A DNA stretch of 36,174 nt from Albidovulum sp. (GTDB taxonomy: Bacteria; Pseudomonadota; Alphaproteobacteria; Rhodobacterales; Rhodobacteraceae): positions 1 to 36,174 of the forward strand of contig NZ_WBUS01000018.1 in assembly GCF_008933605.1 (NCBI RefSeq), in the 5' to 3' direction. The notes beneath the pieces are model-generated. The model did no database searches. It had not been told where the DNA came from and saw only the letters and a list, made by a program, of their open reading frames with translations. Shown here piece by piece: positions 7,520 to 27,917 of the stretch. The position numbers and the translations under genes were made by a program. Positions within the stretch are counted from its first letter, which is position 1, and every line of letters begins with the position of its first letter.

Positions 7520-9298
7520 ATGAGAATGACCACCGAAGAAGCCTTCGTCAAAGTGCTTCAGATGCACGGGATCGAACATGCCTTCGGCATCATCGGTTCC
7601 GCCATGATGCCGGTTTCGGACCTCTTTCCGAAGGCGGGCATCACCTTCTGGGACTGCGCCCATGAAACCAACGGCGGCCTGATGTGCGACGGTTTCATCC
7701 GCGCCACCGGCAAGATGGCGATGGCGATCGCGCAGAACGGCCCCGGCGTGACCGGCTTCGTCACCGCCGTGAAGACCGCCTACTGGAACCATACGCCGAT
7801 GCTGCTGGTGACGCCGCAGGCGGCCAACAAGACCATCGGCCAGGGCGGCTTCCAGGAAATGGAGCAGATGCGGATGTTCGCCGACTGCGTCTGCTACCAG
7901 GAAGAGGTCCGCGATGCGACCCGCATCCCCGAGGTGCTGAACCGCGTCATCCTGAAGGCATGGCGCGCCTCGGCGCCTGCGCAGATCAACATCCCGCGTG
8001 ACATGTGGACCCAGGTGATCGACGTCGATCTTCCCCAGGTCGTCAAGTTCGAACGCCCCGCCGGTGGCGAGGAGGCCGTGGCCGAAGCTGCGCGTCTTCT
8101 CTCCGAGGCACGGTTCCCGGTGATCCTCTCGGGTGCGGGTGTCGTGCTTTCGGGGGCCATCCCGGACGTAGTCAAGCTGGCCGAGCGGCTGGATGCGCCG
8201 GTCTGCTCGAACTACCAGCACAACGACAGCTTCCCCGGCTCGCACCGGCTTGCCATGGGGCCGCTTGGCTACAACGGCTCCAAGGCCGCGATGGAACTCA
8301 TCGCCAAGGCCGATGTCGTGCTCGCGCTCGGCACCCGGCTCAACCCGTTCTCGACGCTGCCCGGCTACGGCATCGACTACTGGCCGAAAGGGGCGAAGAT
8401 AATCCAGGTCGACATCAACGCCGACCGGATCGGTCTGACGAAGAGGGTCACCGTGGGGATCGAGGGCGATGCGGCGAAGGTCGCGCGCGGCATCCTCGCG
8501 CGTCTTTCCGGCAGCGCCGGCGACGAAGGCCGTCAGGCACGGCGTGACCTTGTCGCCACGACGAAGTCCCGCTGGGCACAGGAACTCTCGTCGCTCGACC
8601 ACGAGCAGGACGATCCCGGCACCGTCTGGAACGAGGAAGCGCGCGCGCGGGACGCCGACCTCATGAGCCCGCGGCAGGCCTGGCGTGCGATCCAGGCGGC
8701 GATTCCGGCCGAGGCCATCATCTCGTCCGACATCGGCAACAACTGCGCCATCGGCAACGCCTACCCGGCGTTCGAGAATGGCCGGAAGTATCTGGCGCCC
8801 GGCCTCTTCGGCCCCTGCGGCTATGGCTTCCCGTCGATCCTCGGCGCCAAGATCGGCTGCCCGGACACGCCCGTGATCGGCTTTTCCGGCGACGGCGCCT
8901 TCGGCATCTCGATGAACGAGATGACCGCGTGTGGCCGCGACGACTGGCCCGCGATCACCATGGTGATCTTCCGCAACTACCAGTGGGGCGCGGAGAAGCG
9001 GAACACGACGCTCTGGTACGCCAACAACTTCGTTGGAACGGAACTGGACCGGGACACGTCCTATGCCGGCATCGCCCGCGCATGTGGCGCCAACGGCGTC
9101 CAGGTCCGGACGACCGAGGAGCTCACCACCGAACTGCGCAAGGCGGTCGAGCGCCAGATGAAGGACAAGCAGACGACCTTCATCGAGGTCCTCCTGAACC
9201 AGGAACTTGGCGAGCCCTTCCGCCGCGACGCGATGAAGAAGCCCGTCGTCGTCGCCGGGATTGATCCGGCCGACATGCGCGAGCAGGGCGCGGCCTGA
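7520..9298 (+). CDS. xsc: Sulfoacetaldehyde acetyltransferase, Xsc
   Basis: A 592-residue thiamine-diphosphate enzyme. It converts sulfoacetaldehyde and phosphate to acetyl phosphate and sulfite, cleaving the C-S bond of taurine. The N-terminal Pyr domain holds the cofactor-activating glutamate in CAHETNGG (about residue 42). The C-terminal PP domain has the ThDP/magnesium motif GDGAFGISMNEM, ending in the asparagine of FRNYQWG. The sequence AEKRNTTLW and the overall length fit Xsc better than acetolactate synthase. The start at 7520 has a strong AAAGGAGA site 7 bases upstream. The reading frame is open much further upstream, inside tauY, but that part is not coding. A 10-bp hairpin follows the stop. 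Confidence 0.95.
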   Translation: MRMTTEEAFVKVLQMHGIEHAFGIIGSAMMPVSDLFPKAGITFWDCAHETNGGLMCDGFIRATGKMAMAIAQNGPGVTGFVTAVKTAYWNHTPMLLVTPQAANKTIGQGGFQEMEQMRMFADCVCYQEEVRDATRIPEVLNRVILKAWRASAPAQINIPRDMWTQVIDVDLPQVVKFERPAGGEEAVAEAARLLSEARFPVILSGAGVVLSGAIPDVVKLAERLDAPVCSNYQHNDSFPGSHRLAMGPLGYNGSKAAMELIAKADVVLALGTRLNPFSTLPGYGIDYWPKGAKIIQVDINADRIGLTKRVTVGIEGDAAKVARGILARLSGSAGDEGRQARRDLVATTKSRWAQELSSLDHEQDDPGTVWNEEARARDADLMSPRQAWRAIQAAIPAEAIISSDIGNNCAIGNAYPAFENGRKYLAPGLFGPCGYGFPSILGAKIGCPDTPVIGFSGDGAFGISMNEMTACGRDDWPAITMVIFRNYQWGAEKRNTTLWYANNFVGTELDRDTSYAGIARACGANGVQVRTTEELTTELRKAVERQMKDKQTTFIEVLLNQELGEPFRRDAMKKPVVVAGIDPADMREQGAA

Positions 9299-13041: not shown

Positions 13042-14714
13042 GCCTGGGTCCTCCCATCCATTTCGAGCGGATAGGGTGCGCCCTGGAACAGGCTGATCCT
13101 AACCCATTTGTCGGATCGCGGGTCGAAATGGCTCGCGCCGAAAAAAGCCAGCTTGCAGCGCATGAGGTCGATCGGCAGCATGTCGGCCGCGATCAGGTTG
13201 TCGTGGACCTCGGCATATGGGTGGCCTGCAGCGATCTGCACGCGGCGCACCATGTAACGATGCTCGGGGTGGCGAAGAAGAAATGCCGCAACGGTCTCGG
13301 TCTCGTCCCTCTCCGCCAACGCAGCGTCCAGTTCCGAGGCAAGCCGTGCGATGCACAGCGGCTGTTCCCGCTCCGCGCCGGTCTCGGTTGCGCGCTCGCC
13401 CAGGCGCGGTTCCAGCTTTTCCTCGGAGACATACCAGAAACGGGCAGTGTTCTCCGGCCGGGTGAAGTCGACAGCCAATGCCCAGGCGTAGCGCTCACCC
13501 AGGACTTCACGGAGCCTGCGAAGGCGCATAGCGCCATCCAGACGAAAGGCAACGGCTTCATCGGCGCTCATGCAGGCGGCCAGTTCGTCGACGAGATTGC
13601 CATGGGGTTCGATCAGCAGAGCGAATAGCTGCTCCTGACCCTCGAGCGACAAGGTCTCCTCGCCCCAGACCCACAATGCATCCCATGGCCGCGGATCATC
13701 ACCGGGGAACCTCTCCAGCCGCGTGGCGATCTTCGCCAGGTCCGCGCGCAGGTCGGCGAGCTTCGCGATCTGGATCGGGTGCTCCGACCGCCAATTGGCG
13801 GCATTGCGGCACGCTTCGGCATGGGCTGCGCGAAGGCAGGCCGCGGCCTCGCGCGTCGCCCCATCGATCCTGCGCACCCGTGCCAGGGCCTCTTCGCGCG
13901 CGCTGATCCAGTTGTTGAGAAGCATCGGATGGCGCACCAGGAAGGGAGCCATTCCGAGGCCGGTCGCGTTGCCGACGCCAAGACCACGCTTGATCTCTGG
14001 CGCAAGACGCACCGCCCCGGCCCCCCCCTTCACCGAGGCGAGGTGTTCGACCATGTCCACGGAGAACTGGCGTGTCAGCCAGACCGAAAGCATCTCGATC
14101 TGGAATGGCGCTGCCAGTTCGGGGCGAGCGGCGATGTCGCGCCGGTCGGCGGCACCGAACTTTCCGGAACCGTATACCGCCGTCGTGCGCATCAGATATC
14201 CAACGGCGGCAATCTCCTCGGGATCGGGCTGGCAACCCATGGAGAGCTTGTCGACGACGTGTTCCCACAGGCGGACCGAACGGTTGGCCCGGCTCAGCGA
14301 CAGCTCGCTCGGCCTGATCCGGCCGGCCTCCTGAAGCGGCACGTTGGCCTCAAGACGGTCGAGGTCGGCCTTGGTCGGTGTGCCGTCGAACAACGCGAAG
14401 GTCGCGTCCCACGCGGTGGCGATGACGCGATCCGAACGCATCTCCTCGGGCAGGTCGTGAGCAAAGGCGACAAGGCTGTAGATGCGTTCAGGCCCGATTG
14501 CGCGATATGTGGCGCGCCCGACACCGCAATCGTTGATTTCCCAGATCGGTCGGTCGAAACGCCAGCCCTCTCTTTCCATTCGGCGCAGCAATACCCGCAG
14601 GAACGACAGGCGTGTCGGGTGAGCCGAACCCATCCGTGCGAGCCGCATGACGGTTTCGGGCGGTCTGGGCCGAAGGTGCAGGCCATCTGCAACGTGGGAT
14701 TTGCCGGCGCTCAT
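13038..14714 (-). CDS. Unassigned 558-residue conserved-looking protein
   Basis: I do not recognise this family. The 558-residue protein is soluble in character, rich in predicted helices and without a signal peptide. Motif-like stretches that look constrained are FDRPIWEINDCGVGRATY (residues 53-70), ERIYSLVAFAHDL (76-88), ATAWDATFALFDG (99-111), TTAVYGSGKFG (177-187), GVGNATGLGMAPFLVRHP (246-263) and the C-terminal KLAFFGASHFDPRSDKWVR. The Gly-rich 246-263 segment and the conserved-looking Asp/His residues suggest a ligand or metal site, but no cofactor motif can be named. It lies between the BCCT transporter gene and the coupled DUF3726 gene, so it is a candidate for the missing catalytic step of the operon. 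Confidence 0.75.
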   Translation of the reverse strand: MSAGKSHVADGLHLRPRPPETVMRLARMGSAHPTRLSFLRVLLRRMEREGWRFDRPIWEINDCGVGRATYRAIGPERIYSLVAFAHDLPEEMRSDRVIATAWDATFALFDGTPTKADLDRLEANVPLQEAGRIRPSELSLSRANRSVRLWEHVVDKLSMGCQPDPEEIAAVGYLMRTTAVYGSGKFGAADRRDIAARPELAAPFQIEMLSVWLTRQFSVDMVEHLASVKGGAGAVRLAPEIKRGLGVGNATGLGMAPFLVRHPMLLNNWISAREEALARVRRIDGATREAAACLRAAHAEACRNAANWRSEHPIQIAKLADLRADLAKIATRLERFPGDDPRPWDALWVWGEETLSLEGQEQLFALLIEPHGNLVDELAACMSADEAVAFRLDGAMRLRRLREVLGERYAWALAVDFTRPENTARFWYVSEEKLEPRLGERATETGAEREQPLCIARLASELDAALAERDETETVAAFLLRHPEHRYMVRRVQIAAGHPYAEVHDNLIAADMLPIDLMRCKLAFFGASHFDPRSDKWVRISLFQGAPYPLEMDGRTQA

Positions 14715-16364: not shown

Positions 16365-17390
16365 TCACTCCGCGGCACGATTGAGTTTCGGCTTTTCCCC
16401 GGATTTCGCTCCGAAGCTCGTTTCGAAGCTCGTTTCGAAGAAGCGCAGCCAGTTGCCGCCCATCACGGCAGAGACATCGGCTCGGCTCATGCCGGTCGCA
16501 CGCAGGCCCTTGGCGATGCGACCGAAGTCACGGTTGTCGGCGAACCATTCAGGCATCGCCGGGAAGCCCGGGGCCGAGGCACTTCCCTCACCGTAGTCCT
16601 TCAGCTTGGTCCACCGGCCCACGCGCATCCATTCCACGATGCTGTCTGGCTGGTCCTGGCAAAGGTCCGTGCCGATCCCGACACGCTCGATCCCGATCAG
16701 ATCGGCGGTGCGCGCGATCATCTCGCAGAAGTCATCCAGGCTGCAGGCGCTGCCGCCCTTCAGGTGATGCGGATAGACCGAGAACCCGAGCATCCCGCCA
16801 CTCTTTCCCAAAGCACGCAGGACCGTTTCCGACTTGTTGCGTCGTGCAGGGTGCCAGGCATGCGGATTGGCATGGGTGATCGCGATGGGGCGGGTTGAGT
16901 GTTCGATTGCTTGGAGCGTCGAACGTTCACCCGAATGGCTCATGTCGACGACGAGCCCGACGCGGTTCATCTCGGCTACCACCTCGCGGCCCATGCGGGT
17001 CAGGCCTGTGTCTTCATCCTCGTAGCAGCCCGAGGCGAGCAGCGACTGGTTGTTGTAGGTCAGTTGCATGAAGCGCAGGCCAAGGCTGTGCAGCACTTCA
17101 ATCAGGCCGATATCGTCCTCCATGCAGGAGGGGTTCTGCGATCCGAAGAAGATCGCCGTGCGTCGGGTCTCGCGGGCAAGTGCAACGTCGGCGGCGGTTC
17201 TGCCCTGAAAGATCAGCTCGGGAAACCGTTCAAACCAGCGGTTCCAGCGTTCGATGTTCAGCACCGTCTCGCGGAAGGTCTCGTGATAGGTGATCGTGAC
17301 ATGGACCGCGTCGACGCCGCCGTCGCGCATCTGGCGAAACACCTTTTCCGACCAGTTGGCATATTGCAGTCCATCGATAAGCGGGCTCAT
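16365..17390 (-). CDS. M19 (renal dipeptidase)-like protein with an incomplete zinc site
   Basis: A 341-residue TIM-barrel protein of the amidohydrolase superfamily, membrane-dipeptidase (M19) branch. Typical M19 enzymes bind two zinc ions using H-x-D in strand 1 (DGHND), a bridging Glu (GIEGG), two His, and an Asp. Here strand 1 reads D6-G-L-Q-Y-A-N, so H and D are lost, and the bridging position is in G83-S-Q-N, so Glu is apparently Gln. The later His residues (VVDMSH152, ITH173ANP) and GIGTD242 remain. The sequence resembles, from memory, the M19-like protein encoded with dgcAB dimethylglycine genes of Pseudomonas aeruginosa (PA5396). A role in betaine-derived metabolism rather than peptide cleavage is inferred. 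The start overlaps the aldehyde dehydrogenase stop (ATGA). Confidence 0.8.
   Translation of the reverse strand: MSPLIDGLQYANWSEKVFRQMRDGGVDAVHVTITYHETFRETVLNIERWNRWFERFPELIFQGRTAADVALARETRRTAIFFGSQNPSCMEDDIGLIEVLHSLGLRFMQLTYNNQSLLASGCYEDEDTGLTRMGREVVAEMNRVGLVVDMSHSGERSTLQAIEHSTRPIAITHANPHAWHPARRNKSETVLRALGKSGGMLGFSVYPHHLKGGSACSLDDFCEMIARTADLIGIERVGIGTDLCQDQPDSIVEWMRVGRWTKLKDYGEGSASAPGFPAMPEWFADNRDFGRIAKGLRATGMSRADVSAVMGGNWLRFFETSFETSFGAKSGEKPKLNRAAE
16412..16435. repeat. 12-bp exact tandem duplication inside the M19-like gene
   Basis: CGAAGCTCGTTT occurs twice without a spacer (16412-16423 and 16424-16435). It gives an E-T-S-F repeat near the C-terminus of the M19-like protein. The frame is kept. 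It looks like recent replication slippage. Confidence 0.8.
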
Positions 17391-18838
17391 TCCGGCGCCC
17401 CCGCCGCGACATAGGCGGTCTTCACGGTGGTGTAGAACTCCGCCGCGTAGCGCCCCTGTTCGCGCGGCCCGTAGGAGGACGCCCCGCGCCCGCCGAAGGG
17501 CACGTGATAGTCGGTCCCTGCGGTCGGCAGGTTGACCATCACGCAGCCGGCGCGAACGTTGGCGCGAAAATGACTGGCGCGGGCGAGCGAGCGGGTCATG
17601 ATTCCTGCGGTCAGGCCGAAGTCGCTGTCATTGGCGATGGCCAGAGCCTCCTCATAGTCGCCAGCCTTCATGACGCAGGTGATCGGCGCGAACATCTCTT
17701 CCCGGTTGATGCGCATGTCGTTTCGGGTGCCGGCGAAGACGGCGGGTGCCATGAATAGACCCTCGGTCCTGCGGTTCAGCCGATCGCCGCCGCAGAGAAG
17801 TTCCGCCCCTTCGGACTTTCCGATCCCGATGTAGTCGAGGTTCAGCCGCAGTTGCCCTTCCGAGGCGACGGGGCCAATCTGGGTGCCCTCGTCCAGGGCA
17901 TGCCCGACTTTCAGGGACTGCGCCGCGGCAGCGAGTTTTTCGACAAAACCATCGTGGACGGCCTCGTGCACGATGATCCGCGAGGCGGCAGTGCATTTCT
18001 GGCCGGTCCCGCCAAAGGCCGCGTTTGCGGCGTGGGCCACGGCGAGGTCGAGGTCGGCGTCGTCCATGACCAGCATCGGGTTCTTCGAACCCATTTCCAT
18101 CTGGATCTTCGTCATGTTCGCAATCGCACTGGCGGCGATTCCGCGGCCGACCGAAACCGACCCGGTGAAGCTGATCGCATCCACGTCGCGGCTTTCCACC
18201 AGCCGTTGACCGACGTCACGGCCGGCACCCGCAACGAGGTTGAACAGCCCCGCGGGAATGTCCTGCCTGACGACGATTTCCGTCAGCGCGCAGGCCGAAG
18301 CGGGCGTGATATTCGCAGGTTTCCAGACCACGGCATTGCCAAAGGCAAGCGCCGGCGCGATTTTCCAGGCCGGTGTGGCGACCGGGAAGTTCCAGGGGCT
18401 GATGATCGCCACCACACCCACCGGCTCGCGGCGCACGTCGATCTCGATTCCCGGGCGAACGCTCTCGGCCAGATCCCCATGGAGCCGAAGCGCTTCGGCC
18501 GCATAGTAGGTGAAGAACTGCCCGGCGCGGTAGACCTCGCCGCGACCCTCTGCAAGCGGCTTTCCCTCCTCGCGCGACACCATCCGGCCGATCTCCTCGG
18601 CCCGCGCCATCAGTTCGGTTCCGATCGCCATGAGCACGTCGTGACGCTTCTGCACGCCTGCGCGCCACCACAGCGGCTGCGCCTTGCGCGCCGCAGCCAG
18701 GGCCTCATCGAGCAGCGCGGCATCGGCCTGCCCGTATTCGCCTATCAGGTCGGTCAGGTCAGAGGGATTGCGGTTCTCGATGCGGGCGGCGCCTTGCTCC
18801 CACCGCCCAGCGATATGAACTCCTGTCGCGTGAATCAT
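17387..18838 (-). CDS. NAD(P)-dependent aldehyde dehydrogenase
   Basis: A 483-residue member of the aldehyde dehydrogenase superfamily. The oxyanion asparagine is in ISPWN150FP, the general base in MTKIQME248MGSKNP and the catalytic nucleophile in GTGQKC282TAASR. The C-terminal sequence P-T-A-G-x-D-Y-H-V-P-F-G-G-R is typical of the alpha-ketoglutaric-semialdehyde dehydrogenase-like group. The true substrate is unknown; it should oxidise an aldehyde formed in this operon's pathway. The ATG at 18838 has GGGAGG six bases upstream; twelve further codons of the open frame before it are not needed. It is the first gene of the six-gene operon and overlaps the M19-like gene by four bases. It diverges from a LysR gene. 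Confidence 0.88.
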   Translation of the reverse strand: MIHATGVHIAGRWEQGAARIENRNPSDLTDLIGEYGQADAALLDEALAAARKAQPLWWRAGVQKRHDVLMAIGTELMARAEEIGRMVSREEGKPLAEGRGEVYRAGQFFTYYAAEALRLHGDLAESVRPGIEIDVRREPVGVVAIISPWNFPVATPAWKIAPALAFGNAVVWKPANITPASACALTEIVVRQDIPAGLFNLVAGAGRDVGQRLVESRDVDAISFTGSVSVGRGIAASAIANMTKIQMEMGSKNPMLVMDDADLDLAVAHAANAAFGGTGQKCTAASRIIVHEAVHDGFVEKLAAAAQSLKVGHALDEGTQIGPVASEGQLRLNLDYIGIGKSEGAELLCGGDRLNRRTEGLFMAPAVFAGTRNDMRINREEMFAPITCVMKAGDYEEALAIANDSDFGLTAGIMTRSLARASHFRANVRAGCVMVNLPTAGTDYHVPFGGRGASSYGPREQGRYAAEFYTTVKTAYVAAGAPE

Positions 18839-18927
18839 CCTCGCCTCCCGTTGACGGGCGGACACTAGACGCAATCCGAAATTTAAGGCAATCTTGAAGT
18901 ATTGAACATTATTTCAGGAACTCTGAA
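18839..18927. promoter_or_regulatory. Divergent aldehyde dehydrogenase/LysR promoter region
   Basis: This 89-base AT-richer gap should hold both promoters and the LysR operator. It contains several TTGAA/TTCAG half-sites: TTGAA at about 18894 and 18902, and a dyad TTCAG-N5-CTGAA (18913-18927) that ends just before the LysR GTG start. None is a perfect T-N11-A dyad, so the operator is only a candidate. Confidence 0.45.
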
Positions 18928-19812
18928 GTGGCAATCAAGTTGGAAATGCTGCGGGTCTTCCGCACCGTCGCGGAGAAAGGCGCGCTGTCACAGGCAGCCT
19001 CCGTCTTGGGCCGCACGCCCTCGGCGGTGTCGATGATGCTTTCTCAACTCGAGGAAAACCTCGGCGCGCCGCTCTTTGAAGGGGATCGCAAGAACCAGCT
19101 CACCCGTCTCGGCGAACTGGTATTGGCCGAGGCGATCCGCGCGACGGATGTCTTCGAGTCGAGCGCCGATGCAATCCGTCGCCTGACCACCTCAATCGCG
19201 GGAACCGTGCGCATTGCCGCGGTGCCTTCGGTCACCGCCACGCTGCTGCCACGCGCGCTGGCCGCCTTTCGCCTGACCCATCCCGATGTGCGCCTTGAAA
19301 TCAGCGACCTCGACAGCGCTTCGGTGCGCCGCAGAGTGCGGCTAGATGAAGCGGATATCGGCATCATGACCCGTCGGGTGGACGACGCGGCGGAGGGAGT
19401 GTCGATCATGCGCGACCGCCTGGGGATCGCCTTCAACCACGACGGTGCGGTCGCGAGGGCTGTGGCGAACGGGGCGCCGGCGGACTGGAAGCTCTTGCGC
19501 CTCGAGCCGCTGATCGCCAACCCGCTCTGTGATCTGGTGCCCCATCCAGTCGTCGCCGAACTGATGAAATCGTGCAATCTCGAGGCCCGGAACACCACAG
19601 CGCTGATCGCCTTTGTCCGTGAAGGGCTCGGAGCCACCATTCTGCCTGACAGCTTGCTGCTTGACCGGGAGGGCATCGGCTATGTCGGCCCAGCCACGCC
19701 AGAGGCCCGCCGCGAATTGCGCATGATCTCCAATCCCGAGCGGCGCCTCAACCCGGCAGCGGAAGAGCTATGGAAGATGCTTGCGACTTTTCGGGATTCG
19801 AACCCGCTCTAG
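18928..19812 (+). CDS. LysR-type regulator of the six-gene operon
   Basis: A 294-residue LysR-family transcription factor. The N-terminal winged HTH (residues 1-60) includes LRVFRTVAEKGALSQAASVL, then GRTPSAVSMMLSQLEENLGA and FEGDRKNQLT. It is followed by a linker helix and an effector domain beginning GTVRIAAVPSVTATLLP at about residue 91. Such regulators usually bind the intergenic region they share with a divergent target operon and respond to a pathway metabolite. Here the target should be the aldehyde dehydrogenase operon. Translation starts at GTG 18928. The HTH and effector domain are complete. The co-inducer cannot be named. Confidence 0.88.
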   Translation: MAIKLEMLRVFRTVAEKGALSQAASVLGRTPSAVSMMLSQLEENLGAPLFEGDRKNQLTRLGELVLAEAIRATDVFESSADAIRRLTTSIAGTVRIAAVPSVTATLLPRALAAFRLTHPDVRLEISDLDSASVRRRVRLDEADIGIMTRRVDDAAEGVSIMRDRLGIAFNHDGAVARAVANGAPADWKLLRLEPLIANPLCDLVPHPVVAELMKSCNLEARNTTALIAFVREGLGATILPDSLLLDREGIGYVGPATPEARRELRMISNPERRLNPAAEELWKMLATFRDSNPL

Positions 19813-20251: not shown

Positions 20252-21415
20252 TCAGGCATCCCTCTCGGGCGCCGGGTGGCGCCCGCCGTCCCGTTGCAGC
20301 GCCCTCAGGACCGACTGCCAGGCCAGAAGGCCGGAAGGGCGCCCATCGGCCATGACCACGAGAGGGCGGTCGCGGCGGGCCAGCGCGCCGAAGGCCTCCT
20401 CGACATTGGCCGAAGCCTCGATCGTCACCGCATCCTCGAGTTGCGCCTCGCCGTTCCGCACACCGCCGCCGGCCCGCATCAGCCCGTGCCCGCCGCTGCC
20501 GTCGGAGATGATCACCCAGCCCGAGGCGCCGGAGGCCGCCTGCGGGCTGGGGAAGACCGGCCCGGGTTCGGCCAGCGCGCCACAGGTGACGGTCCGCGCC
20601 CGGTTCACGTCGCGCACGAAACGCGCGACATAGTCGTCGGCCGGCGCCATCAGGATGCCGGCGCCGGTCCCGACCTGGCGCAGCCTGCCGTCCTTGAGGA
20701 TCGCGATGTGATTGCCGAGCAGCAGCGCCTCGTCGAGGTCGTGGGTAATGAAGACGATAGTCTTGTGCAGCCGCGACTGGATGTCGCGCAGCTGCATCTG
20801 CATGTCGTGACGGATCAGCGGGTCGAGCGCGCTGAATGCCTCGTCCATCAGCAGGATCTCGGCATCCGTCGCAAGCGCGCGTGCCAGCCCCACCCGCTGC
20901 TGCATGCCGCCGGAAAGCTGGCCGGGATAGCGGCCCTCGAAGCCGGCGAGCCCGACCAGCTCGATCTGCCGCATTCCGCGGTCGCGCGCCTCCTGCCGGG
21001 GAGCGCCGTCGATAATCAGCCCGTAGATGACGTTCTCCAGCACCGTCTTGTGCGGCAGAAGGGCAAATCGTTGGAACACCATCGAAGCCTTGTGGCGGCG
21101 AAAGGCGCGCAGGGCCGCCGGACCCAGCCCCAGCACATTCTCGCCGTCGACCAGGATGCGGCCGGCGGTCGGCTCGATCAGCCGGTTGAAATGCCGGATC
21201 AGCGTCGACTTGCCCGATCCCGACAGGCCCATGATCACGAAGGTCTCGCCCTCGCGGATATCGAGATTGATCTCGTGCAGCCCCAGCACATGGCCGGTCG
21301 CCTCGAGCAGCTCAGTCTTGCCCATCCCGTCCCAGACCCGCGCCAGCGCGGCTGCCGGATCGGCACCGAAAATCTTCGAGACGTTCTCGACCCGGATCTT
21401 GACGCCACCTGCCAC
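20252..21415 (-). CDS. Quaternary-amine ABC transporter ATPase (ProV/OpuAA-like)
   Basis: A 387-residue ATP-binding subunit of the glycine betaine/proline (QAT) ABC family. The Walker A is G-L-S-G-S-G-K-S-T at about residues 64-72, the signature is LSGGMQQRVGLARAL, the Walker B is ILLMDEAFSALDPL, and the switch is FITHDLDEAL. The N-terminal VKIRVENVSKIFG plus an insert before Walker A is typical of ProV. The last roughly 110 residues form a CBS-like regulatory part; its ionic-strength sensing in OpuA is known, but here it is short and divergent. It is last in the operon, 3 bases after the permease gene. It powers import of a betaine-like compound. Confidence 0.88.
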   Translation of the reverse strand: MAGGVKIRVENVSKIFGADPAAALARVWDGMGKTELLEATGHVLGLHEINLDIREGETFVIMGLSGSGKSTLIRHFNRLIEPTAGRILVDGENVLGLGPAALRAFRRHKASMVFQRFALLPHKTVLENVIYGLIIDGAPRQEARDRGMRQIELVGLAGFEGRYPGQLSGGMQQRVGLARALATDAEILLMDEAFSALDPLIRHDMQMQLRDIQSRLHKTIVFITHDLDEALLLGNHIAILKDGRLRQVGTGAGILMAPADDYVARFVRDVNRARTVTCGALAEPGPVFPSPQAASGASGWVIISDGSGGHGLMRAGGGVRNGEAQLEDAVTIEASANVEEAFGALARRDRPLVVMADGRPSGLLAWQSVLRALQRDGGRHPAPERDA

Positions 21416-21418
21416 GGC

Positions 21419-22291
21419 TCAGCTCTCCAACTTCAGGGACTTCTGCATCCGACGCCCGTAGGACTGGGCGATGCGGTCGAAGATGATGGCGAGGAAGACG
21501 ATGCCAAGCCCGGCCAATAGTCCGCGGCTGACCTCGAGTCGCTGGATGCCCTGGAGGACCTGGTAGCCAAGGCCGCCGGCGCCGATCATCGAGGCGATCA
21601 CCACCATCGACAGCGCCATCATCGTTGTCTGGTTGACCCCCGCCATGATCGCCGGCAGCGCAAGTGGCACCTGCACCGTCCAGAGCTGCTGGCCGGGCGA
21701 GGCGCCGAAGGCGCGGCTCGCCTCGACGATCTCGGGATCGACCTGGCGGATGCCGAGATCCGTCAGGCGGATAACCGGCGGGATGGCGAAGACGATGGTG
21801 GCGAGAAGCGCCGGGATCTTGCCCGGGCCGAAGAGCATGACGAATGGGATCAGGTAGACGAAGATCGGCATGGTCTGCATGATGTCGAGGACCGGCAGCG
21901 CCGCCACCCGCAAGCGGTCGACGCGCGACATCAGGACGCCGATAGGGATACCGGCGAGGATCGACAGCGCCGTTGCCATCAGCATCAGCGCGATCGTCGC
22001 CATCGCCGCATCCCAGACGCCGATCAGCCCCAGCGCCAGGGTCAGCGCCAGAACCACCGCCACCGTGCGCCAGTTCCGCGCCGCGTGCCAGGCCAGTGCC
22101 GCCAGCGCCAGCGCCACCAGCCACCAAGGCAGCGCCTGGAGCCCCTTCTCCATCAGGCCCAGAAGCCGCAACACCGGCATGAACAGCGCCTCGAGCGTTT
22201 CGCCCCAGGTGGCTACCAGCCCGTTGAAAGCCGCATCGAGTCCGCGGGAGAAGCCGCGCGTGTCCCAGAGTTCGGGGAAGCCTGATGCCAT
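21419..22291 (-). CDS. Quaternary-amine ABC transporter permease (ProW-like)
   Basis: A 290-residue inner-membrane protein with about six to seven hydrophobic segments and the MetI-like permease domain. The EAA-type coupling loop is EIVEASRAFGASPGQQLWTVQVPLALP, about residues 186-212. The PVLDIMQTMPIFVYLIP segment before it is characteristic of the glycine betaine/proline permeases ProW and OpuAB. Unlike Gram-positive OpuAC-fused permeases there is no attached binding domain; the periplasmic receptor is encoded just upstream. Substrate is unproved. Confidence 0.87.
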   Translation of the reverse strand: MASGFPELWDTRGFSRGLDAAFNGLVATWGETLEALFMPVLRLLGLMEKGLQALPWWLVALALAALAWHAARNWRTVAVVLALTLALGLIGVWDAAMATIALMLMATALSILAGIPIGVLMSRVDRLRVAALPVLDIMQTMPIFVYLIPFVMLFGPGKIPALLATIVFAIPPVIRLTDLGIRQVDPEIVEASRAFGASPGQQLWTVQVPLALPAIMAGVNQTTMMALSMVVIASMIGAGGLGYQVLQGIQRLEVSRGLLAGLGIVFLAIIFDRIAQSYGRRMQKSLKLES

Positions 22292-22394: not shown

Positions 22395-23399
22395 TCAGAG
22401 ACTCGCCTTCACCTTCTCGGCGACGTCGGCCGGCACCCAGTTGGTCCAGATCGCCTCGTAGTCCTTGAGGAAATGGGTCGCCACCTCCTCGGGCGTGGCG
22501 CCGTTGTCATCGCCCCAAGCCAGCACCTCGCTGATCTCGGCATTCGGGACCTGCATCTTGGCGAGGAAGTCCGCCACGTCGGGCGCGCGCTCCTTCAGCG
22601 ACGAGACCACGGCGACCGCCACCTCGCCCACGGCCCAGCCGGTGACCTGGGGATCGGCGCAGTTGACGTCGGTCATGCAGGTGAAGGCCTCCTTGTCGAA
22701 GGTCGGCGTCTTCAGCAGCACCAGATGATACTTGCCGATCACGTCCGACGGGCCCCAGTAGTAGCCAACGAAGGCCTCTTTCTGGGCCACCTGCCGCGCG
22801 ATCGACGCCTTGAGGTTTTCGCCTGAGCCGGGCGAAAACAGCTCGAACGTGTCCGCCAGCCCCAGCGCCTTGTAGTAGTTGGTGATGATCACCTCGCTGC
22901 CCCAGCCGGGAGGGCCGTTGTAGAGCCGGCCCTTGCCGGGGGCGGAGGCATCCTCGAACACCCTCCAGTTGGCCTTCAGGTCCTCGATGCTCTGGATTTC
23001 AGGATGTTCGGCGATGATGTAGTCCGGAACCCAAAGCCCTTCCTCGCCGCCCGACGCGAAGATGTCGCCGGCCTTGTAGACGTTCCCCTTCTCCTGCATC
23101 TGGTCCCAGATGCTCTGCGCGGTGGAGACCCAGAGCTCGGGCGCCACCATCGGCTCGGACCGGGTCAGCATCGAGGTCGCGGTCGGCACCGTGTCGCCGG
23201 GCACCAGCTCCGCCTCGCAGCCGTAGCCCGCCGAGAGGATCTTCTGCGCGACATGCGCCAGCGAGCCGGCCGAAAGCCAGGTCATCTCGGCGATGGTCAC
23301 CCGATCGGCCGTCCCGCAATCCGCTGCAGCAGCGCCGGTGGCCGCCATCTGACCCGCCGCGAGCGAGGTCGCTGCAGCGAGCACAAGCTTGTAGTTCAT
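22395..23399 (-). CDS. Quaternary-amine ABC transporter periplasmic binding protein (ProX/OpuAC-like)
   Basis: A 334-residue binding protein with a Sec signal peptide (MNYKLVLAAATSLAAG, cleavage probably after the GAAAA-type stretch near residue 26). The OpuAC domain begins VTIAEMTWLSAGSLAHV. It continues with APELWVSTAQSIW and FVGYYWGPSDVI, the latter corresponding to the region that carries cation-pi aromatic residues in betaine receptors. Two Cys (in CGTADR and GCEAELV) and a second pair (FTCMTDVNCADP) may form disulfides in the periplasm. Ligand preference cannot be read from sequence. It is encoded after the EthD-like gene and before the permease and ATPase genes. Confidence 0.85.
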   Translation of the reverse strand: MNYKLVLAAATSLAAGQMAATGAAAADCGTADRVTIAEMTWLSAGSLAHVAQKILSAGYGCEAELVPGDTVPTATSMLTRSEPMVAPELWVSTAQSIWDQMQEKGNVYKAGDIFASGGEEGLWVPDYIIAEHPEIQSIEDLKANWRVFEDASAPGKGRLYNGPPGWGSEVIITNYYKALGLADTFELFSPGSGENLKASIARQVAQKEAFVGYYWGPSDVIGKYHLVLLKTPTFDKEAFTCMTDVNCADPQVTGWAVGEVAVAVVSSLKERAPDVADFLAKMQVPNAEISEVLAWGDDNGATPEEVATHFLKDYEAIWTNWVPADVAEKVKASL

Positions 23400-23471: not shown

Positions 23472-23807
23472 TCAGCCCGGCACCGGGATGTCGTCGGTCT
23501 CGTGCAGGACATGACGCACCGTGCCGCGGAAGAGGGGCAGGAAGTTGCCTACGTCCTCGCGCGCCTGTCGCCGGATGTCCGAGGCCATCGCGCGATCGAA
23601 GTCCGCACGGCTGGCAAACCCCAGTTCGAAGGCCAGGTAGTGGTCTGGCCCGGCGCCGTTCCACGGGGTCCCGCGGTGGTAGCGTAGCGAATGCAGGCCG
23701 GGATAGCGGGCGACCAGCGGCAGGTGGATGTTCCGCACATGATCGTCGAAGCGCTGGCGGTCGCCCTCGGGCACGTCACCCTCGTAATAGGCGCAGAGTG
23801 TGAGCAT
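23472..23807 (-). CDS. EthD-like small protein (dimeric alpha/beta barrel)
   Basis: A 111-residue protein of the EthD type, with the ferredoxin-like dimeric alpha/beta-barrel fold. It starts MLTLCAYYEGDV, continues with F-D-D-H-V-R-N-I-H-L-P-L, the common position of the His-containing helix, and ends FRGTVRHVLHE. Members support ring-opening or monooxygenase-linked degradation, or act as lyases and isomerases of small metabolites; most are uncharacterised. It has an AGGGAGG site, lies 16 bases after the second ridA-type gene and is followed by the binding-protein gene after 72 bases. Its place in a transporter operon suggests it works on the imported compound, which is inference. Confidence 0.65.
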   Translation of the reverse strand: MLTLCAYYEGDVPEGDRQRFDDHVRNIHLPLVARYPGLHSLRYHRGTPWNGAGPDHYLAFELGFASRADFDRAMASDIRRQAREDVGNFLPLFRGTVRHVLHETDDIPVPG

Positions 23808-23823: not shown

Positions 23824-24291
23824 TCAGGAAATTTCGAAGGTGCCGTCGAGTTCGACGGGCACGTTCAGCGGCAGCGAGTTGACGCCGACGCCAACGCGGG
23901 TATGGCGACCGTCCTCGCCGAAGATCTCGGCCATCAGGTCCGAGGCGGCGTTCATTACCCGCGGATGGTCGCGGAAGTCCGGCGTGCAGTTGAAGAAGGC
24001 GTTGAGCCGCACAACTTTTCGCACCCGGTCGAGGTCGCCGCCGCAGGCGGCGCGCACCTGCGCCAGCACGTTGAGCGCGCAGAGCCGGGTCGCGGCCTCC
24101 GCCTCCTCGACCGACACATCCTCGCCGATCCGCCCCACATGGCGGAGCTTGCCGTCGAGGAACGTGACCTGCCCGGCGATCACCACCTGGTTGCCGCTGA
24201 TCACATAGGGCTGGTAGCTGGCCACGGGGACCGGCGGTTCGGGCAGGACGATCCCCAGCTGCTCAAGGCGTGCATCGATCCGTCCAGCCAT
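23824..24291 (-). CDS. RidA-family protein (YER057c/UK114-like group 1)
   Basis: A 155-residue Rid-family protein of the longer type in which a helix of about 25 residues (RIDARLEQLGIVLPEPP) precedes the domain. The core includes VVIAGQVTFLDGK, then R-L-C-A-L-N-V-L-A-Q-V near residue 75, and the C-terminal GRHTRVGVGVNSLPLNVPVE, in which the arginine corresponds to the RidA active-site Arg. It is the first gene of the (-) operon with the EthD-like and ABC genes. A perfect LysR-type dyad lies 104 bases upstream of its start, overlapping the end of the regulator gene. It is a different Rid subgroup from the one at 11966-12322. Confidence 0.85.
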   Translation of the reverse strand: MAGRIDARLEQLGIVLPEPPVPVASYQPYVISGNQVVIAGQVTFLDGKLRHVGRIGEDVSVEEAEAATRLCALNVLAQVRAACGGDLDRVRKVVRLNAFFNCTPDFRDHPRVMNAASDLMAEIFGEDGRHTRVGVGVNSLPLNVPVELDGTFEIS

Positions 24292-24357
24292 CGTCCTCTC
24301 CTTGCCTCGGGCGCCGGGTCCTGGCCGGCGGCTCTGCGTGAGACGGGATGTTAGGGC

Positions 24358-24417
24358 TGGATTGATTATTCCAACAAATTCAAAGAAAGGATGGATTGAT
24401 TAAAAGAAATCATCAAT
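24358..24417. promoter_or_regulatory. LysR-type operator upstream of the ridA-ethD-proXWV operon
   Basis: An AT-rich island in GC-rich surroundings. A perfect dyad ATTGAT-N11-ATCAAT lies at 24395-24417 and touches the stop of the LysR gene. TGGATTGATTA is repeated exactly at 24358-24368 and 24392-24402, 34 bp apart, with the first copy giving a degenerate second site. The same dyad with identical spacing occurs at 25352-25374. The promoter of the (-) operon is probably here. Confidence 0.7.
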
Positions 24418-25340
24418 CATGGCGCCGCATTCAGCTCGATCTCGCGCGGGACCTGGGCGCGAATATAGTCCCAGATGCGACGCGCGCCCTGCGACAGCGC
24501 CTCGTTGCGGCGACGGATCAGGCAGAGATGGCGATGGACCGCCGGGTTGGTCAGCCGGCGGAACACGAGTTCCGATTCCACCGCCGCGGGCCGCGCCAGT
24601 TCGGGCAGGAGCGTTATCCCGAGCCCCGCGCGCACCATGTCGAGCATGGTGACCATCGCCAGCACCTCGCCCGCCGGGGTCGGGCAGCGCTCGACGAATT
24701 CGGGCGTGTTTTGCAGCGCCGTATAGAAGCCGGTGTCGGAGGCCATGATGAACAGCCGCTTCTGGTCGATGCCTGCCCAGTTGAATGGCCCCTCCTCTCG
24801 CGCCAGCGGATCGTCGCGGCGGCAGACGAGGCCGAAGCGATCGGATGTGAGCGGCGTGAACTCCAGCTCGGGATAGGGACGCCAGACGTTGCTGATGCCG
24901 AACTCGACATCGTGGTCCAGCACCTGGCGGTGGACGCCGCGGCCGTTGTCGTCGCGCAGGGTGATGCGGATGTCGGGATAGATCTCGTGAAAGCCGCGGA
25001 CCAGCGGCGGCATCAGCCGGGTGGCGACCGAGGGCACCACGGCGATCGGCACCCGCCCCTGGCGCTGTTTGGCGGTCTCGGTGACCGCGGCCAACGCGTG
25101 GTCGAAATCGCCGATGATCCGCTCGGCAGCGATGAGCAGGCTCTCGCCATCGACCGTCAAGACCACCTGCCGCGTGGTGCGGTTGAAGAGCGCGACGCCC
25201 AGGTGCTCCTCAAGCTGACGCACGGTGACCGTAAGGGCCGACTGTGACAGAAGCAGCCGCTCGGCGGCGCGGGTGAAGCTCGAATCCCGGGCCACGGCAA
25301 CGAAGGCGCGCAGGTGCCGCAGGTTGATCGCCGATTTCAT
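24417..25340 (-). CDS. LysR-type regulator between transporter and PreA-like operons
   Basis: A 307-residue LysR-family transcription factor. The HTH is in residues 5-65: HLRAFVAVARDSSFTRAAER, then LLLSQSALTVTVRQLEEHLG and LFNRTTRQVVLT. The effector domain starts near residue 93 with RVPIAVVPSVATRLMPP. It diverges from the PreA-like gene and its 3' end abuts the promoter of the ridA-type operon. Matching ATTGAT-N11-ATCAAT dyads on both sides of the gene fit its control of both operons and of itself. The co-inducer is unknown, likely the transported compound or a breakdown product. Confidence 0.9.
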   Translation of the reverse strand: MKSAINLRHLRAFVAVARDSSFTRAAERLLLSQSALTVTVRQLEEHLGVALFNRTTRQVVLTVDGESLLIAAERIIGDFDHALAAVTETAKQRQGRVPIAVVPSVATRLMPPLVRGFHEIYPDIRITLRDDNGRGVHRQVLDHDVEFGISNVWRPYPELEFTPLTSDRFGLVCRRDDPLAREEGPFNWAGIDQKRLFIMASDTGFYTALQNTPEFVERCPTPAGEVLAMVTMLDMVRAGLGITLLPELARPAAVESELVFRRLTNPAVHRHLCLIRRRNEALSQGARRIWDYIRAQVPREIELNAAP

Positions 25341-25351
25341 CTTCGCGCCGA

Positions 25352-25374
25352 ATTGATCTGTTTAGATTATCAAT
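25352..25374. promoter_or_regulatory. LysR-type operator before the PreA-like operon
   Basis: A perfect dyad ATTGAT-N11-ATCAAT lies between the divergent LysR and PreA-like genes, 12 bases from the LysR start. Its arms and spacing are identical to those of the dyad at 24395-24417. T-N11-A within an interrupted dyad is the classical LysR box. Confidence 0.72.
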
Positions 25375-25394
25375 ATGGTGGACTTTTGCATTTA

Positions 25395-25415
25395 ACAGAT
25401 CAAGCGCCGATCTGT
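25395..25415. promoter_or_regulatory. Second dyad before the PreA-like gene
   Basis: ACAGATC-N7-GATCTGT is a perfect 7-bp dyad 47 bases before the PreA-like start. The arm GATCTGT also occurs at 25355-25361 inside the first dyad. It could be the activation-type half-site region of the LysR protein or a site for another factor. Confidence 0.45.
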
Positions 25416-25461: not shown

Positions 25462-26694
25462 ATGGCGGATCTGAGTGTCGAGTTTTCCGGCCTGAAGCTG
25501 AAGAACCCCATCATCGTCGCCTCGGCCGAGCCGAGCAACAGCGTCGAGAACATCAAGAAATGCATCGACCACGGCGCCGGCGCGGTGATCACCAAGACGA
25601 TCGGCGACATCCCCGGCATGCGCAAGCTCACCGAGAATTCGAAATACGCCATTCTCAACGACAAGGGCACGCTGATCCGGGGCAAGGTGCCGCGGTCCTT
25701 CGTGTTCTACAGCCGCTCGGGCTATGTCACCGAGCCCGAGCAGGACTGGATTTCCTACCTGAAGGAGACCCAGGCTTATGCGGAGGCAAGCGGCTCGCAC
25801 ATCATCGGCAACATCACCTCGGGCACCGTCGCCGGCTGGCGCGGGCTGGCTCGGATGGTCGAGGATTGCGGCATCCCGATGCTCGAGGTCAACTACCAGT
25901 GCCCGCACCCGACCGAATTGGCCGCCGGCGCCGAGGGCGTCTGGCTCGCCCAGGACCCGAAGGTGACCGCCGAGGTCACCCGCCAGATCGTCGATGCGGT
26001 CGGCATCCCGGTGATGGTCAAGCTGACCCCGGAATCGAACCGCATCACCGAGATCGCCAAGGCGGCGCTCGACGCCGGTGCCGCCTCGGTAGCGGTCAAC
26101 AGCCGCTTCGTCGGCTTCGCCGTCGATATCGACAAGGCCGAACCCTACATCGGCGGGCCGGCCGGGGTCGGCGGGCCTTGGGTCAAGTATATCACCCAAC
26201 GCTGGGTCAATGAGATCTTCGACAAGTTAGGCTGCGACATCTCGGGCTCGAACGGCATCTTCGACGCGCGCGACGCAATCGAGTTCATCATGTCGGGCGC
26301 CAAGGTGATGCAGGTCGGCTCGGTCTTGATGCTGAAGGGTGTCGAGTGGTTGCCGAAGGTGATCGACGGGATCGAGCGGTTCCTTGACGAGCACGGCTAT
26401 CCCGACCTCGCCGCGATCCACGGGCTTGCCTCGAAGCGGGCGCTGAAGACGCCGGCCGAGATGCTGTCGATGGAGCCGCTCTACTGCGAGATCGACCGCA
26501 GCAAGTGCAAGTATCCGACATGCGACATTTGCGTGCGCATGTGCTTCTACGACTCGCTGCATTTCGGCGAGGACCGGGTGGTCACCACCCCCGACACCTG
26601 CATCGGATGCGAGCTCTGCTACAACGTCTGCCCCTTCGACGCGATCCGCATGCTGCCGAAGTCCGAGCGCAGCGAGACTCTGGCCGCCGAGTAG
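25462..26694 (+). CDS. PreA-like flavoprotein: dihydroorotate dehydrogenase-type barrel fused to two 4Fe-4S sites
   Basis: A 410-residue protein. Residues 1-320 form an FMN barrel of the dihydroorotate/dihydropyrimidine dehydrogenase family (VEFSGLKLKNPIIVASAEPS at the start, VMVKLTP around 184-190, then SGAKVMQVGSVLML). The C-terminus has two 4Fe-4S motifs, C-x4-C-x2-C-x3-C (CKYPTCDICVRMC) and CIGCELCYNVCP. PreA of E. coli reduces uracil with PreT, but no PreT gene is here; the ferredoxin and ferredoxin-NADP reductase genes follow instead. After NYQCPHP (144-150) the active-site loop reads GVWLAQDP, without the catalytic Cys of mammalian dihydropyrimidine dehydrogenase. The substrate is therefore open. 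A GAGGAA site precedes the ATG. Confidence 0.82.
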   Translation: MADLSVEFSGLKLKNPIIVASAEPSNSVENIKKCIDHGAGAVITKTIGDIPGMRKLTENSKYAILNDKGTLIRGKVPRSFVFYSRSGYVTEPEQDWISYLKETQAYAEASGSHIIGNITSGTVAGWRGLARMVEDCGIPMLEVNYQCPHPTELAAGAEGVWLAQDPKVTAEVTRQIVDAVGIPVMVKLTPESNRITEIAKAALDAGAASVAVNSRFVGFAVDIDKAEPYIGGPAGVGGPWVKYITQRWVNEIFDKLGCDISGSNGIFDARDAIEFIMSGAKVMQVGSVLMLKGVEWLPKVIDGIERFLDEHGYPDLAAIHGLASKRALKTPAEMLSMEPLYCEIDRSKCKYPTCDICVRMCFYDSLHFGEDRVVTTPDTCIGCELCYNVCPFDAIRMLPKSERSETLAAE

Positions 26695-26715: not shown

Positions 26716-27093
26716 ATGACCTTCGTCGTCACCGAGAACTGCATCAAGTGCAAATACACCGACTGCGTCGACGTCTGCCCAGTGGACTGCTTCTACGAGG
26801 GCGAGAACTTCCTCGTGATCCATCCCGACGAATGCATCGACTGCGGCGTCTGCCAGCCGGAGTGCCCGGCTGATGCGATCTTCGCCGATACCGACGGTGA
26901 CTATGATGAATGGATTGCGCTCAACCGCCGCTATGCCGAGCTTTGGCCGGTGATCACCAAGAAGATCGCCGCACTGCCGGACGCCGATGTCTGGACGGCA
27001 AAGCCTGGAAAACTGCCGCTGCTGAGCCCCCGGCCCGGCGGCTCGGACGCGCCGGTCGCCGAACCGGCACCTGCCTGGGAAGGAAGGCCATGA
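26716..27093 (+). CDS. 7Fe-type ferredoxin (FdxA-like) with extended C-terminus
   Basis: A 125-residue ferredoxin of the seven-iron (3Fe-4S plus 4Fe-4S) type. Cys9, Cys17 and Cys50 fit the 3Fe cluster; Cys21, Cys40, Cys43 and Cys46 fit the 4Fe cluster. Cys12 and Cys25 match the two free cysteines of Azotobacter ferredoxin I. The usual helical tail ([15 protein letters not shown]) is followed by about 30 Pro/Ala-rich residues beyond the normal length. An AGGAGG site lies before the ATG at 26716, and the stop overlaps the start of the reductase gene (ATGA). In this operon it should carry electrons between the reductase and the PreA-like enzyme. Confidence 0.9.
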
Positions 27094-27917
27094 CCGAACA
27101 GAGTGCGATGAGCCACCGTGGCGCCAAACCCGTCCGCACCCTGCCCGATGCGCAGACCGTGCTCTCGGTCCGCCACTGGACGGACCGGCTCTTCTCCTTC
27201 CGGGTGACACGGCCGCGAAGCCTGCGCTTCCGCTCGGGCGAGTTCGTGATGATCGGCCTGCTCGACGACAACGGCAAGCCGCTCCTGCGGGCCTATTCGA
27301 TCGCCTCGCCCTCCTGGGACGAGGAGCTGGAATTCTACTCGATCAAGGTGCCCGACGGGCCGCTCACCTCGCGGCTCCAGCACATCGCGGCGGGCGACCA
27401 GATCATCCTGCGCCCGAAGCCGGTGGGCACGCTCGTGCTCGACGCGCTCCTGCCCGGAAAGCGCATCTGGTTCCTCGCCACCGGCACCGGCATCGCGCCC
27501 TTCGCCTCGCTCATGCGCGACCCCGAGACCTACGAGAAATACGACCAGGTGATCATGATGCACACCTGCCGGACCGCGGCCGAGCTCGAATACGGACGCG
27601 AACTGGTCGAAGGCCTGAAGGACGATCCCCTGATCGGGGAAGTCGTCGGCGACAAGCTGAAATACTATCCCACGACGACGCGGGAAGAGAGCGCCCATAT
27701 GGGCCGGATCACCGACAACCTGACCTCGGGCAAGGTCTTCGCCGATCTCGGGCTGGCGCCGATGGACAAGGCGACCGACCGGGCGATGGTCTGCGGCTCG
27801 CTCGCCTTCAACGTCGACGTCAAGGCGGTTCTGGAAGGCTTCGGGCTGCGCGAGGGCGCGAACTCGGACCCGCGCGAGTATGTCGTGGAAAAGGCCTTCG
27901 TCGGCGACGGAATCTGA
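27090..27917 (+). CDS. Ferredoxin-NADP(+) reductase (Fpr type)
   Basis: A 275-residue FAD/NADP(H) reductase of the bacterial Fpr class. The FAD-binding motif is R-A-Y-S-I-A-S-P (about residues 68-75) and the nucleotide-binding loop is [15 protein letters not shown] (about 129-143), followed by [12 protein letters not shown]. The C-terminal EKAFVGDGI lies in the family-typical position next to the flavin. The ATG at 27090 overlaps the ferredoxin stop as ATGA, indicating coupled translation. It probably feeds NADPH electrons through the ferredoxin to the PreA-like enzyme, or runs in reverse. Whether this is the cell's general Fpr or a dedicated one cannot be told; the operon suggests dedicated. 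Confidence 0.9.

Follow-up and report, generated by a model that had tools for sequence, protein, structure and literature searches.

The locus considered here raises the question of whether two copies of one DNA sequence, lying on either side of a gene for a LysR-family regulator, tie an ABC importer and a set of redox proteins into a single regulon. An earlier note on the window (the whole stretch of 36,174 nucleotides that was analysed) had proposed this from two occurrences of the dyad ATTGAT-N11-ATCAAT, each placed in an AT-rich island within GC-rich DNA. On re-reading the window sequence, the two 23-bp copies were found where that note had put them, at 24395–24417 and 25352–25374, with the same arms and the same 11-bp spacing, and the surroundings are AT-rich as described, the 60 bp from 24358 having a GC content of 27% and those from 25352 one of 35%, against 66% for the whole window. 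The first copy (operator A, minus strand) lies between the LysR gene and ridA, having one base in common with the TGA stop codon of the former, with the ATG of the latter 103 bp downstream. The second (operator B, plus strand) lies in the gap between the divergent LysR and PreA-like genes, with the LysR ATG 11 bp away and the PreA-like ATG 87 bp away on the other side. The description of the dyads as each preceding an operon and flanking the LysR gene therefore stands, with the refinement that the LysR gene is itself on the minus strand and that operator A shares this strand with both LysR and ridA.

The regulator (24417–25340, minus strand, 307 aa) has the N-terminal HTH_1 and the LysR_substrate substrate-binding domain of a LysR-type regulator, both over the Pfam cut-off. 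On the minus strand, the order from operator A is ridA, ethD, and the genes of the binding protein, permease and ATPase. These encode a RidA/YjgF-family protein of 155 aa (23824–24291; Pfam PF14588; PDB 3d01, E 9.5e-42), an EthD-family protein of 111 aa (23472–23807; Pfam EthD, with TIGR02118 over its cut-off), an OpuAC-type substrate-binding protein (22395–23399), a ProW/ChoW-like ABC permease (21419–22291; profile matches) and an ABC ATPase of the ProV family (20252–21415; TIGR01186 over its cut-off). From operator B, the plus strand carries the genes of a PreA-like flavoprotein of 410 aa with a C-terminal 4Fe-4S domain (25462–26694; profile matches and alignment to dihydropyrimidine dehydrogenase), an FdxA-type ferredoxin (26716–27093; NF045490 over its cut-off) and a ferredoxin-NADP reductase-like protein (27090–27917), which falls below its profile cut-off (NCBIfam PRK10926, 122.9 bits against 390). 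The mechanical ORF of the reductase starts at 26910, the Met at 27090 being the likely start, and in tblastn the shorter form is 71–85% identical in four relatives. Elsewhere in the window, genes for an M19 membrane dipeptidase and an aldehyde dehydrogenase (16365–18874, minus strand) are divergent from a second LysR gene (18928–19812, plus strand), and no dyad of this type was found in that region (16365–19812). A 70% identical M19 protein is encoded in another locus (L056), 3.7 kb from a 44% identical LysR relative and beside a RidA of 43% identity.

Orthologues of the regulator at E ≤ 1e-62 were identified in 2 of 22 genomes of the genus, 2 of 394 of the family and 3 of 385 of the class, counts that all include the own genome, and a separate protein scan returned five relatives, with two close loci (L014 and L015) at 82–83% identity. 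The orthologous loci found were three syntenic ones (L055 in genome G005, L014 in G438 and L015 in G439) and a rearranged one (L025 in G108), and the sites occur in four genomes whose LysR proteins are at least 82% identical and in one where the identity is 58%. All nine genes occur in the same order in L055 (same genus, LysR 89% identical), L014 and L015, each of which has the two dyads in the corresponding positions. The expectation that the dyad would be kept in orthologous loci thus held for both places in all three syntenic loci but not for the exact ATTGAT/ATCAAT arms, which are looser, the variable positions being base four of the left arm and base three of the right. Identity is higher in the HTH region than over the regulator as a whole in five comparisons covering 36–89% identity (L055, 93 vs 89%; L015, 93 vs 82%; G108, 70 vs 58%; Cupriavidus, 57 vs 36%; Aminobacter, 53 vs 39%), with L014 a near tie (85 vs 82%).

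The conserved element runs beyond the dyad. All eight sites of the four syntenic loci, own locus included, fall into a gap-free alignment of the composite ATTNAT-N11-ATNAAT-N10-TTTG[A/C]ATTT, the 18 fixed bases of which have no mismatch in any of the eight; within these, TTTG.ATTT is invariant throughout. This second element, a proposed activation site, lies a fixed 10 bp from the dyad, extends into the proposed −35 hexamer and is invariant among the four A sites, where it reads TTTGAATTT (24376–24384, minus strand), and among the four B sites, where it reads TTTGCATTT (25385–25393, plus strand). From the register, a −35 of the ridA operon promoter is proposed at 24372–24377 (TTGTTG, minus strand; TTGTCA or TTGTCG in relatives) and a −10 at 24348–24353 (TAACAT, minus strand; TAACAT or TATCAT in relatives), 18 bp apart. 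All four A sites have this arrangement of TTGTYR, 18 bp and TA[A/T]CAT, with TA.CATC invariant. The register of the B sites is identical, their −35 reading TTAACA or TTCACA, and in operator B the −35-like TTAACA, at 25392–25397 (plus strand), comes after the second element. A conserved −10 was not seen across the four aligned B sites, which would suit an activator-dependent promoter. The operators, their register and their conservation are established at the level of sequence.

According to the available excerpts of PMC8407307, LysR sites span 50–60 bp, the recognition site being a T-N11-A close to −65 and the activation site lying at −35. A T-N11-A lies inside the dyad at both sites of the window and at all eight syntenic sites, and counting from the proposed −35 and −10 the centre of the operator A dyad is at about −66. 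The second element, at its fixed distance in 8/8 sites, would then lie at −35, in keeping with a total of 50–60 bp. Both sites can therefore be read as a textbook LysR operator, with a recognition dyad ~66 bp before the predicted start and an activation element at the predicted −35.

The rearranged locus of G108 (LysR 58%, PreA-like 73% and reductase 71% identical) has the PreA-like gene and then the reductase gene divergent from LysR. Two composite matches with 2 and 3 mismatches were identified there, one preceding the PreA-like gene and the other the reductase gene, with matrix scores of 35.3 and 29.1 bits against −7.8 for the next best. The two matches thus moved along with these genes, and the operator follows the redox genes despite their changed order. 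The importer genes are absent from the G108 locus (the best binding-protein match of G108, at 26% identity, is encoded on a different contig), so the link between importer and redox set is not universal. Divergent from the PreA-like gene of this locus, a pyrogallol-hydroxytransferase-like molybdenum enzyme and its Fe-S subunit are encoded at 8594–12444 of L025.

Among more distant regulators the results were mixed. An Aminobacter LysR (42% identical) has one match before a binding-protein operon (3 mismatches, 23.8 bits) and another before an FAD-oxidoreductase operon (2 mismatches), the 5.7 bits of which are only slightly above the next best score of −0.2. No site was found for the queried LysR of Cupriavidus (38%). 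Another LysR gene nearby has a site of 28.4 bits, placed like operator A, between its stop codon and the genes of a hydantoinase A/B pair; this operator-like site of Cupriavidus campinensis is at 13926–13975 of L051. LysR relatives at 44 and 39% identity (G471 and G613) have no clear composite site, the best scoring 9.6 and −8.5 bits. Composite scores were at most 1.6 bits in four loci that have a PreA-like protein of 50% identity and no LysR match. These mixed results indicate that the motif is common to part of a LysR subgroup.

Taken with the conservation of the sites, it is very probable that two operons are under the control of the LysR protein encoded at 24417–25340, each by way of its own copy of a single composite operator. 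The two-operon regulon that the earlier note had proposed is well supported by the retention of the dyads at both places in the syntenic loci, with binding of the operators by the regulator predicted. By analogy with known LysR regulators, a LysR tetramer would anchor on the dyad ~66 bp before the start and bend the DNA, and inducer binding would shift the other LysR dimer onto the −35 element and recruit RNA polymerase. Operator A would drive ridA–ethD and the ABC importer, and operator B the PreA-like/FdxA/reductase operon. Since operator B lies 11 bp before its start codon, LysR should also repress itself from there.

Binding of both sites by some other regulator, be it the product of the second LysR gene or a paralogue encoded elsewhere, appears quite improbable. 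The evidence assigning the sites to LysR 24417–25340 is positional, and one LysR each of Aminobacter and Cupriavidus also has similar sites before its own operons; LysR-type relatives thus seem to recognise dyads of much the same kind, and a dyad by itself cannot identify its regulator. However, the sites flank this LysR gene, and matches with 0–2 mismatches are found in all five genomes having it and in none of the 11 same-genus genomes lacking it (five composite matches there, all with 3 mismatches). The second LysR has no separate gene in the three syntenic loci, where its only matches are weak and to LysR itself, and its HTH is 41% identical to that of LysR 24417–25340. Even less probable is that only operator B functions, with A a relic or weak copy and ridA, ethD and the importer read through from the LysR promoter. 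Read-through would be allowed by the common strand of LysR and ridA and the short gap between them, but operator A is as strictly conserved as B, and a conserved −10-like TA.CATC with the correct spacing is seen in 4/4 A sites and for A only.

A chance similarity of two AT-rich promoters has a negligible likelihood and was rejected on the own-genome count, on the expectation of a first-order Markov model of the window (0.08 exact dyads and 2e-6 extended motifs per genome of this size) and on the conservation of the sites in register across relatives and after rearrangement, even though both sites are in AT-rich islands and the exact dyad is present in 10 of 60 other genomes. Control by this one LysR through both operators is thus the reading retained. 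In the own genome of 3.66 Mb there are just two copies of the exact dyad, both at this locus, and no match to a reversed control pattern. The earlier judgement that chance could hardly account for the pair is confirmed. An in-window test allowing 2 mismatches in the dyad is weaker and not decisive alone, shuffles averaging 0.47 matches and 7 of 100 reaching two.

Since its exact arms also turn up in those 10 of the 60 genomes and so are no unique signature, the exact dyad was rejected as a marker in other genomes, G005 having a true orthologous locus and no exact dyad; the distinctive signature is instead the pairing together with the extended motif. Whole genomes were searched with the composite as a 42-bp pattern at up to 3 mismatches. 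The own genome and G438 each have two places, all at the locus, and G108 has two, both at the orthologous genes. In G005 there are four, two without mismatch at the locus and two with 3 mismatches elsewhere, and G439 also has four, two without mismatch at the locus, one in reverse over operator A with 3 mismatches and one elsewhere with 3. At up to 2 mismatches the composite was found in 60 of 394 family genomes (reversed control, 14 of 394), which is too loose for a family-wide marker and leaves only near-perfect matches or pairs informative. Among the family matches listed, those without mismatch are in the own genome only, and six genomes have a place with 1 mismatch. With a leave-one-locus-out matrix, both sites scored 50–63 bits in each of the four held-out loci, the next best per locus reaching 15.3, 16.5, 12.0 and 9.2 bits. 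In the 36 kb window just these two sites were scored, so that distant targets below the threshold could exist.

As to what the regulon handles, the importer had been called betaine-type, which holds at family level only (OpuAC binding protein, ProW/ChoW-like permease and ProV ATPase). The nearest solved relative of the binding protein is the DMSP binder DmpX (7YLE; E 4.2e-57, 34% identical), the pocket of which consists of Trp35, Thr64, Trp84, Glu113, Trp152, Ala153, Tyr200 and Trp202 according to the excerpted text of PMC10030565. The binding protein of the window keeps seven of these eight residues, Ala153 reading Gly. Three of the four cage tryptophans (Trp35, Trp84 and Trp152) are equally present in 5/5 more distant OpuAC paralogues, and Thr64 is the sole residue separating the groups, being found in 4/4 binding proteins of the locus vs 0/5 of the more distant proteins. 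Since the three tryptophans are generic and only Thr64 separates the groups, an onium compound is the likely ligand, with DMSP unproven; we lean towards a substrate that resembles a betaine or a pyridinium compound.

When aligned with dihydropyrimidine dehydrogenase (E 7.5e-29), the PreA-like protein has a cysteine at the position that is substituted in the 1h7x and 7m31 chains of that enzyme, corresponding to the catalytic active-site Cys671 in 1gt8 numbering. This cysteine is kept in six of the seven sequences aligned, the protein of L015 having Thr. Against the PreA equivalog of NCBIfam the window protein scores 203 bits, below the cut-off of 335. The genes of distant PreA-like proteins (50% identical) neighbour those for FdxA, reductase, amidase, DUF2848 and Cupin_7, with a xanthine-dehydrogenase-type Mo hydroxylase in L027, and these neighbours suggest that this branch reduces N-heterocycles. 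In L026–L029 there is a second, wider cluster around such a 50% identical protein, near Mo-hydroxylase genes and an apparent branched-chain-type ABC importer; Pfam was run there on the L026 and L027 proteins only, and the importer was judged from the ORFs. Both kinds of PreA-like cluster also have, as a recurring gene in their vicinity, one for an E1-type thiamin enzyme (L015, 2130–5372; L014, 13099–15318; L027, 1–2760). In L015 and L027 this gene has a common neighbour, the L015 copy of which gave no match in a Pfam scan.

From these gene families, the regulon probably serves the uptake and processing of an onium-type zwitterion with clearance by RidA. It would take up a small zwitterion, a betaine or a sulfonium, and process it or its product, electrons passing from NADPH to the reductase, the ferredoxin and the PreA-like protein, while RidA would clear a reactive imine or enamine. 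A further reading, which we put forward tentatively and at somewhat short of even chances, is that of a dedicated, undescribed catabolic unit combining DmpX-like import of an onium zwitterion, the reduction of this compound or its product by an NADPH-reductase-ferredoxin-PreA-like chain and the handling of an unstable intermediate by RidA and EthD, under one LysR and twin composite operators. Searches of a limited literature set on the gene set and on the motif returned no description of such a regulon.

An N-methylpyridinium betaine such as homarine or trigonelline is an unlikely candidate for the substrate, which the PreA-like enzyme, supplied by the ferredoxin, would reduce and RidA would help to open. 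An OpuAC binding protein with an onium cage and the retained active-site cysteine are consistent with it, and the neighbours of the distant PreA-like proteins (amidase, DUF2848, Mo hydroxylase and FdxA/reductase) fit the breakdown of N-heterocycles. Against it, L015 has Thr at the cysteine position, and the rarity of the regulator (2 of 394 genomes in the family and 3 of 385 in the class, with the own genome counted) is a poor fit with a widespread homarine pathway (published in PMC13236597, as cited in the available part of PMC13390433).

Transport of DMSP itself is more doubtful again. DmpX is the best solved relative, with the pocket and Thr64 kept as above, and DMSP-lyase-family matches occur in four of the five genomes having the locus, but one (G439) is without a PF16867 match and no known DMSP gene lies within the locus. 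With most of the cage generic among the OpuAC controls this reading is weakened, and we know of no place for a PreA-like reduction in the known DMSP routes. In the own genome, two PF16867 DMSP-lyase-family matches over the cut-off were identified, at G000:C291:8074-8490 and G000:C111:53222-53635.

The conserved DNA sites tie the importer and the ferredoxin-driven reductase set into one predicted regulon, beyond gene neighbourhood, so that substrate screens on one half would inform the other. The composite operator also offers a ready test for further targets and for guessing the regulators of related LysR proteins.

When compared to known systems, the PreA-like protein shares a DHO_dh-type flavin domain and a C-terminal 4Fe-4S domain with PreA and dihydropyrimidine dehydrogenase, but its partners here are FdxA and the reductase, and none of the nine conserved genes is PreT-like. 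The DMSP importer DmpXWV, as described in the available excerpts of PMC10030565, has the same set of OpuAC binding protein, permease and ATPase, the binding proteins being 34–38% identical to DmpX and retaining most of its pocket residues, whereas the predicted importer here is tied to LysR, RidA, EthD and a ferredoxin-linked PreA-like set. The control logic, that of a LysR two-operon regulon with composite operators, is ordinary for the family and of a known kind. LysR divergent catabolic regulons include those of the CbbR, BenM and CatM type. The accessible portions of PMC4834489 describe two promoters under one LysR-type activator also for ThnR in tetralin degradation, but those are divergent and close together, whereas here the regulator gene lies between both promoters. 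The T-N11-A near −65, the second element at −35, and a site overlapping the regulator's own start with a divergent operon are all shared with the LysR divergent catabolic regulons, as far as the excerpts of PMC8407307 describe them. What sets this locus apart from these is a second full operator after the regulator gene, which would drive a second operon on the regulator's own strand.
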